DNA of 64,000 nt from assembly GCA_031266775.1 (NCBI GenBank), contig JAISAQ010000107.1, positions 18,553-82,552 of the forward strand, in the 5' to 3' direction. This document shows positions 60,964 through 62,743 of the stretch, one piece after another. Position numbers and translations under genes: made by a program. The stretch is from Treponema sp. Its GTDB lineage: Bacteria > Spirochaetota > Spirochaetia > Treponematales > Breznakiellaceae. The notes under the pieces were generated by a model. That model did no database searches and was not told the DNA's origin. It worked only from the letters and a program-made list of their open reading frames with translations. Position 1 is the stretch's first letter. The number at the start of each line of letters is the position of its first letter.

Positions 60964-61572
60964 ATGCTGGAAATTTTTCTTATAGGACTTGCCCTTTCCA
61001 TGGACGCCTTTGCCGTATCGGTCAGTTCCGGCATCTGCATACGGGATCTAAAACCCTTTTACGCGGTACGGGCAAGCCTTTCCTTCGGGATCTTCCAGTT
61101 TATCATGCCGGCCGCAGGATGGTTTCTGGGCGGCGCCTTCGCGCGGTACATCGGCGCCTTTGACCACTGGATAGCATTCTTCCTTCTTGTCTTTACAGGC
61201 GGAAAGATGATCTTCGAGGCGCACAAAGACGGGGGAAAAACAAAAAAGGGCGGTGAAGAACACTCAGACGGCGGGCGTTTTTGTGACGAAAAAAACACCG
61301 CGGACATAAGAAGCCCCGCCGCCCTGCTTGTCCTTTCTCTTGCCACCAGCATAGACGCGCTTGCGGTGGGCGTTTCCTTCAGCATCATGCAGAACGGCAT
61401 CTGGGGAAGGGCCGCCCTTATCGGGGGCATCACCTTTTTTGTCTGCCTTGCCGGTTTTGCCTTTGGGCGGCGCATCGGCTTCCTGTTCGAAAAATGGGCG
61501 GAAACGGCCGGAGGGATCATCCTTGTGATGATAGGGGTGAAGACGCTGGCCGAACATCTCCTGGCAGGATGA
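60964..61572 (+). CDS. mntP: Manganese efflux pump MntP-like
   Basis: LEIFLIGLALSMDAFAVSVSSGI..FGIFQFIMPAAGWFLG..LVLSLATSIDALAVGVSF. Confidence 0.92.
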   Translation: MLEIFLIGLALSMDAFAVSVSSGICIRDLKPFYAVRASLSFGIFQFIMPAAGWFLGGAFARYIGAFDHWIAFFLLVFTGGKMIFEAHKDGGKTKKGGEEHSDGGRFCDEKNTADIRSPAALLVLSLATSIDALAVGVSFSIMQNGIWGRAALIGGITFFVCLAGFAFGRRIGFLFEKWAETAGGIILVMIGVKTLAEHLLAG

Positions 61573-61582
61573 ACGGAGGTTC

Positions 61583-62743
61583 ATGATGTCAAACAGCGGA
61601 GACGGCCGCCGGCCGGAAATAAAACCTCTTACCTCGCTGCGTTTTGTCTTTGCCATGCTGGTTTTTTTATCCCATTATTCAACAGGGGAAAAGGTTATTT
61701 TTTTCGAAGGGTTCATCGGGGTCGAATTTTTCTTTATCCTGAGCGGATTCGTACTTTCCTATACCTACGGAAACAGAATAGCGGAAAAGAAAACGCCGCT
61801 GGGGGAATTCTTCATGGCGCGCTTCGCGCGGATATACCCCCTGCATCTTGCGACGTTTCTTTTGTCGCTGGCGCTGCTGGTTAGAAATTCCCTTGCAGCC
61901 GGGGGGGGGGGGGTAACTACGCTGCCATGGCTCAGGATGTTTTTCAACATAACCCTGCTGCAAAGTTTTGTCCCCGACTCCTCATATTATCTTTCGTTTA
62001 ACATTGTTTCATGGAGCATTTCGGACGAGATGTTCTTTTACCTCGCGTTCCCCCTGCTGCTGTGCGTCTTTAACGGACACCGAATCAAAATAAAGGCGGC
62101 GGCGGGCCTTGTGGTGCTGGCGGCGTATTTTACGGCGATCTTCCTCCTCCCCGGACAGTACGCTCACGCGGTTTTTTACATAAACCCGCTTGTAAGAATG
62201 CTTGATTTTATCCTGGGAATGCTGCTGTTCCGTATATGGCGGCGCATTACATCCGGCGCGGAAAACAGGAAAGGCGCGCTTCACGGAAAATTCCTTCCTG
62301 CCGCTGTCGAAATTGCGCCGGTATGCCTTCTTGTCATAATGGTGGCGGCGGCAGACAGGATTCCGCTTGTGTACAGAATAGGAAGCTACTACTGGATACC
62401 CCTGGCGCTGCTTGTTCTGTGCTTCGCGCAGCCGTTCGGCGAAGGAATCATCTCAAAACTATTGTCGCTTAAACCTTTCATGTTTCTGGGCAGAATAAGT
62501 TTTGCGTTTTATATGCTGCATCACATGATGTTAAGCCTGGTACCCGCCGCGGTAAAACGTGTGCTGCACCTGGATCTGGAAAGCATACATCCCGCCGCAA
62601 GATTCACAATAATTTTCGCGGCGGTCCTCGCGGCAGGCATAGCCGGCTTTTACTGTTTTGAACTGCCCGCCGGTAATTTCATAAAGAACCTTTCGAAAAA
62701 ACGGAAAAAGCAGACCGGTACAAGCCCCCGGAACGCCGCCTGA
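61583..62743 (+). CDS. Acyltransferase-3-family membrane protein
   Basis: KPLTSLRFVFAMLVFLSHYSTG..GFIGVEFFFILSGFVLSYTYGNR; many TM segments. Confidence 0.92.
   Translation: MMSNSGDGRRPEIKPLTSLRFVFAMLVFLSHYSTGEKVIFFEGFIGVEFFFILSGFVLSYTYGNRIAEKKTPLGEFFMARFARIYPLHLATFLLSLALLVRNSLAAGGGGVTTLPWLRMFFNITLLQSFVPDSSYYLSFNIVSWSISDEMFFYLAFPLLLCVFNGHRIKIKAAAGLVVLAAYFTAIFLLPGQYAHAVFYINPLVRMLDFILGMLLFRIWRRITSGAENRKGALHGKFLPAAVEIAPVCLLVIMVAAADRIPLVYRIGSYYWIPLALLVLCFAQPFGEGIISKLLSLKPFMFLGRISFAFYMLHHMMLSLVPAAVKRVLHLDLESIHPAARFTIIFAAVLAAGIAGFYCFELPAGNFIKNLSKKRKKQTGTSPRNAA
61901..61913 (+). repeat. Homopolymeric G tract (13 G) inside coding sequence
   Basis: ccttgcagcc-G13-taactacg, encodes AAGGGGV. Confidence 0.95.

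Follow-up and report, generated by a model that had tools for sequence, protein, structure and literature searches.

A G13 tract lies in frame within an acyltransferase-3 gene

Within the analysed window, a 64,000-nt stretch of a Treponema sp. genome (G000), a run of 13 guanines (G13) was found in frame inside an acyltransferase-3 (AT3) gene, and judging from its sequence context this run is probably a slipped-strand-mispairing contingency tract, which would make the AT3 gene phase variable at the level of translation. The gene (61583..62743, + strand) starts with an ATG at 61583 and has an intact ORF of 386 codons. The tract occupies codons 107−111 (61901..61913, + strand) and begins 318 nt after the ATG, which confirms the first-pass annotation that had placed it about 320 nt into the gene. 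It is read in frame as GCC-GGG-GGG-GGG-GGG-GTA-ACT (AGGGGVT) and falls between the predicted helices 73−105 and 114−123. A TAA triplet follows directly 3′ of the tract (61914..61916, + strand), which is out of frame at 13 Gs and becomes a stop codon at 12 Gs.

Translating the gene at different tract lengths gave products of 138, 110, 386, 139, and 111 aa for 11, 12, 13, 14, and 15 Gs, respectively. Since the TAA abuts the tract, one G fewer puts a stop in frame at residue 110, while one G more ends the protein at 139 aa. Translation thus bears out the earlier claims that gain or loss of a single G truncates the 386-aa protein and that the tract is currently ON, the frame being open at 13 Gs as assembled. 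A threshold of 9 Gs, applied to coding and promoter tracts alike, has been used for poly-G phase-variable loci (PMC5953494); G13 is a coding tract above this length, and a one-unit change alters its expression as judged only by translation.

Based on these products, slipped-strand mispairing would alter the length of the G13 tract and thereby switch AT3 at translation: the full 386-aa enzyme would be encoded at 13 Gs, while the truncated products would keep just the first helices. We infer that the tract length changes in vivo, that the truncated forms lose activity, that the acyl acceptor is a cell-envelope glycan, and that switching is of benefit to the cell; the output would then be a glycan that is acylated or not at random, each state being heritable.

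Run statistics and assembly context of the tract

Apart from G13, no G or C run in the window exceeds a length of 8, which is reached twice, and extrapolation of the run-length decay predicts 0.002−0.013 runs of at least 13 per window by chance. A lone G13 in one window could be a chance oddity, but the source genome contains 41 G/C runs of at least 9, of which 31 are at least 12. Similarly, runs of at least 10 G have a median density of 7.3 per Mb in the source family versus 2.35 per Mb in the other families of the order (p = 9e-4), and this tract-rich background supports the switch that the first-pass annotation had proposed.

The G13 tract is located about 2.1 kb inside contig C71, away from the contig end, while 22 of the 41 G/C runs of at least 9 in the source genome have a contig end no more than 150 nt away, versus 0.4 expected. 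Either cells differing in tract length or poorly sequenced G runs may lie behind this excess. Poly-G junctions also account for some of the fragmentation of such genomes in assembly. Being resolved inside its contig unlike those 22 runs, the G13 tract may be less variable than they are.

The exact length of G13 may carry an assembly error, and a stronger form of this doubt holds that the AT3 gene is an ordinary one, whose tract length results from faulty assembly or sequencing. Poor assembly of poly-G in drafts is evident from terminal runs of 48−102 G or C at contig ends of the source genome (e.g. C8, C20, C23, C69, and C84), and from an AT3 gene of G013 (L148:2238-2420), where a G16 and a G12 flank a garbled-looking tandem copy of about 170 bp. 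This copy is possibly a misassembly caused by poly-G, which indicates that poly-G regions in such assemblies can be misassembled. Nevertheless, the G13 tract lies inside a contig, its frame is open, and conserved sequence resumes on both sides; tracts of 12−61 are also found in the finished single-contig relatives G045, G046, and G056. The HiSeq2500 and HiSeq4000 are four-colour machines, on which dark-cycle G runs do not arise. These machines were used in a termite metagenome study that is the likely but unconfirmed source of related assemblies (PMC9137090), which likewise speaks against an artefact. We consider an artefactual tract very unlikely.

Identity of the AT3 gene and comparison with known phase-variable systems

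The 386-aa protein matches the Acyl_transf_3 profile (PF01757) with an E value of 1.5e-22 and a score of 80.5 bits (cut-off 31), its residues 18−353 aligning over profile positions 6−322 of 326. This is the sole domain found in the protein: 33 aa lie beyond the end of the match, no SGNH domain is fused to it, and the protein therefore lacks the C-terminal SGNH that marks the AT3-SGNH (PglI/OafB) type. The three AT3 family motifs listed in a review, R/K-X10-H, VxxFFx(I/L/V)SG(F/W/Y), and RXXR (PMC9558356), are all present, as R20-X10-H31, V47EFFFILSGF56, and R80FAR83, respectively. In an alignment of 21 homologs, V47, F50, F51, S54, G55, F56, and R80 are invariant, and R20, H31, and R83 are nearly so. 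It is the only AT3 gene found in the source genome, which is 87% complete. No relative of solved structure was obtained by sequence at E 1, and a Foldseek search with the AT3 model gave no significant match; human HGSNAT was considered as a structural relative (TM 0.40) and set aside because of its E value of 2.4.

Directly 5′ of the AT3 gene, with a gap of 10 nt, lies mntP (60967..61572, + strand), encoding a putative manganese efflux pump. The same gene precedes AT3 in both congeners (G001 and G002), and this arrangement makes a shared transcript of mntP and AT3 possible. The nearest relatives of the AT3 protein outside the family are mostly from Bacteroidota, at 35−40% identity, which suggests that the gene was acquired by horizontal transfer. 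Compared with G002, the dN/dS ratio is 0.56 for the AT3 gene, 0.29 for mntP, and 0.11 for part of holA, and a ratio of 0.44 was obtained for the AT3 part downstream of the G001 tract. By these ratios, the AT3 gene is evolving faster than its neighbours, under a constraint that is relaxed but real.

Among known systems, Neisseria pglI (NMB1836) encodes an AT3-SGNH pilin-glycan O-acetyltransferase and is phase variable by a genic poly-G of 9−15 (PMC5953494; PMC9558356). The gene studied here resembles it in encoding an AT3 enzyme with a coding poly-G tract in the same length range, by which frameshifts would turn it ON and OFF. However, PglI carries a fused SGNH domain that is absent from the 386-aa protein, so the two belong to different AT3 subtypes; they also come from unrelated lineages, and both acceptor and switching are established for PglI, whereas switching is here proposed from sequence. 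Haemophilus influenzae oafA, a phase-variable AT3 O-acetyltransferase gene of lipooligosaccharide (PMC9558356), also has a simple repeat as its switch, and its switching alters surface acylation, but the repeat is a tetranucleotide instead of poly-G and the acceptor is known.

The first-pass annotation had pointed instead to Treponema pallidum, where poly-G tracts are found at tprE/G/J/L and tp0126 (PMC7864442). This parallel holds insofar as poly-G tracts at surface-related genes of a spirochaete are concerned. It falters in that the best-studied tracts there act in promoters and affect transcription, not the reading frame, although genic tracts such as that of tp0798 at +826 are also listed (PMC7864442), and no acyltransferase is among those considered; the closer coding precedent is Neisseria pglI (PMC5953494). 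An AT3 enzyme under the control of a coding poly-G tract is already known in PglI, and what would be new is the lineage of the source genome. A search of openly available papers turned up no account of phase variation for termite-gut treponemes or for the source family. The nearest named relatives of the source genome are Treponema recovered from gut metagenomes, in all likelihood those of termites.

Orthologs of the AT3 gene carry tracts at three sites

Searching 195 genomes of the family at an identity of at least 40% yielded six AT3 orthologs, that of the source genome included (G000, G001, G002, G068, G090, and G099), and four of the six carry a tract of at least 13, at three different sites. 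The closest ortholog, that of G002 (85% identity), has no tract and reads GGGGACGCGG where G000 has G13; the G090 ortholog is also without a tract. The G001 ortholog (72% identity) has no tract at the G000 site and carries a G13 near its own codon 25 (query aa ~34), at which it is frameshifted: the upstream frame runs into a TGA after 29 aa, the halves on either side of the tract lie in different frames, and the downstream frame is open. A G15 in G068 and a G23 in G099 are both situated near query residue 285 and lie 36−42 nt from contig ends; well-assembled tracts are present in only two of the six orthologs (G000 and G001).

Under uniform placement, the probability that at least three of the other five orthologs carry a tract of at least 12 is 3.6e-5, or 0.002 with G068 and G099 counted as one event, and both figures are too high if most tracts are intergenic. 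The recurrence of tracts, together with the frameshifted OFF allele of G001, backs the switch reading of the first-pass annotation; the open G000 and the frameshifted G001 alleles come from different species and different tract sites, and are not one locus switching.

All three tract sites are situated in indel-rich stretches of the 21-homolog alignment and in loops of the AlphaFold2 model (loops 31−44, 105−114, and 281−289; pLDDT 80, pTM 0.83). Because these loops tolerate indels, a glycine run of varying length is likely tolerated when the frame is open, as judged from the alignment and the model, and the ON protein would carry the run harmlessly. In this reading, tracts have formed more than once in the AT3 gene, always within a loop that tolerates indels.

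The same set of orthologs bears on gene decay, by which the tract would mark the first step in losing an acyltransferase that came by horizontal transfer and is dispensable. Such a loss would fit the sparse distribution of the gene (6 of 195 family genomes) and its mostly Bacteroidota outside relatives, as well as the truncated copy of G020 and the G068 copy, which may be a pseudogene since it carries a further 2-bp frameshift near residue 40, as seen against the fragment of G020. It is countered by the G000 and G002 genes, which are full length with intact motifs and a dN/dS below 1, and by the frameshifted G001 allele, which is still open beyond its tract (382 aa, no stops). Decay is in our view the least probable account of the tract.

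Poly-G tracts across the source genome and family

Most of the long tracts in the source genome are intergenic. In G056 and G000, several tracts precede genes encoding BspA-type leucine-rich repeat, InlB-repeat, Big_2, OmpA, or cadherin-like proteins, a placement shared with T. pallidum; since other G000 tracts adjoin metabolic or transport genes, such as those of acetate kinase (downstream of its stop) and UDP-sugar dehydrogenase, this association with surface genes is descriptive. Some intergenic tracts with conserved flanks vary in length by copy and species, being G21, G12, and G21 in G000 and G13 in G002.

This distribution can be read in favour of neutral slippage, by which a stretch of G-rich loop codons happened to lengthen in a lineage whose G runs tend to grow, giving a hypermutable tract of no benefit whose OFF alleles are deleterious or tolerated. 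The family is tract-rich overall, the long G000 tracts are mostly intergenic, the AT3 gene is less constrained than its neighbours, and the tract sites are G-rich even in tract-less relatives, as seen in the G002 stretch given above for the G000 site and in AGGGGAAAAGG of G000 at the G001 site. However, long tracts are rare in conserved genes, yet they occur in four of the six AT3 orthologs at the low chance probabilities calculated above (3.6e-5 to 0.002), and the position of several family tracts upstream of surface-protein genes, though descriptive, looks selected. Neutral slippage is therefore an unlikely explanation, if a more serious one than artefact or decay, and a contingency tract in the AT3 gene is preferred. 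Loss of mismatch repair was also considered as a cause of the tracts and, as far as MutL shows, is not indicated. MutL is present in the source genome; it was found in 35 of 39 genomes, and its absence from G002, G003, G007, and G013 may reflect incompleteness.

If the G13 tract is a contingency tract, the AT3 frame switch would operate beside promoter-type poly-G tracts that precede surface-protein genes. Extending this, we tentatively suggest that the symbiotic treponemes of invertebrate guts might possess a genome-wide poly-G phasome, in which adhesin-like promoter switches would be coupled with envelope-acylation frame switches, and AT3 tracts would be lost and regained at different loops with the gene staying switchable. 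As invertebrate hosts are without adaptive immunity, the driver would be phage, lysozyme, or protist contact. Most known cases of poly-G phase variation come from pathogens and commensals of vertebrates, and are usually explained by immune evasion. If the proposed switching is true, such a tract-rich family, whose spirochaetes are symbionts, probably of invertebrates, would be evidence that poly-G switching is sustained by pressures other than immune evasion. An AT3 gene with tracts at three loops would also allow a direct study of how contingency tracts arise and disappear.

On the C strand, a conserved promoter-like stretch of approximately TAATTCCTTGTATTATAATGAATTA precedes many intergenic tracts (L119, L123, and L125 in G056; L058 and L062 in G000), and a surface-type ORF starts about 60−190 nt downstream. 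With TATAAT as the −10 box, transcription would start at the C tract. A TAA directly follows tracts of at least 10 G in 13 of 34 cases in G000, 11 of 22 in G001, 8 of 12 in G002, 7 of 10 in G007, and 7 of 18 in G021, and this is rare in G010 (1/157) and G015 (1/85). The TAA was considered as the mark of one mobile element. The intergenic tracts have a promoter-like flank in common, but the coding AT3 tract matches them in the first few bases only, and a common origin is therefore not claimed.

Whether AT3 genes are tract hosts in general was also considered, and a G/C run of at least 9 was found in or near 5 of 21 loci from 12 genomes, some of them very tract-rich, which is too weak to uphold such a rule. 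In the single-contig genome G056, a C61 followed by (AC)6 occurs at the 3′ end of an AT3 gene (L073:2588-2648) and encodes a proline run; this gene was rejected as an ortholog, being a distant relative instead. Finally, a G11 in G000 (L035:1502-1512) and a G13 in G001 (L172:1502-1514) are in frame in two different secreted-protein genes, the L172 product being substrate-binding-protein-like, and both tracts sit just after the signal peptide (AGPGQQGGG).
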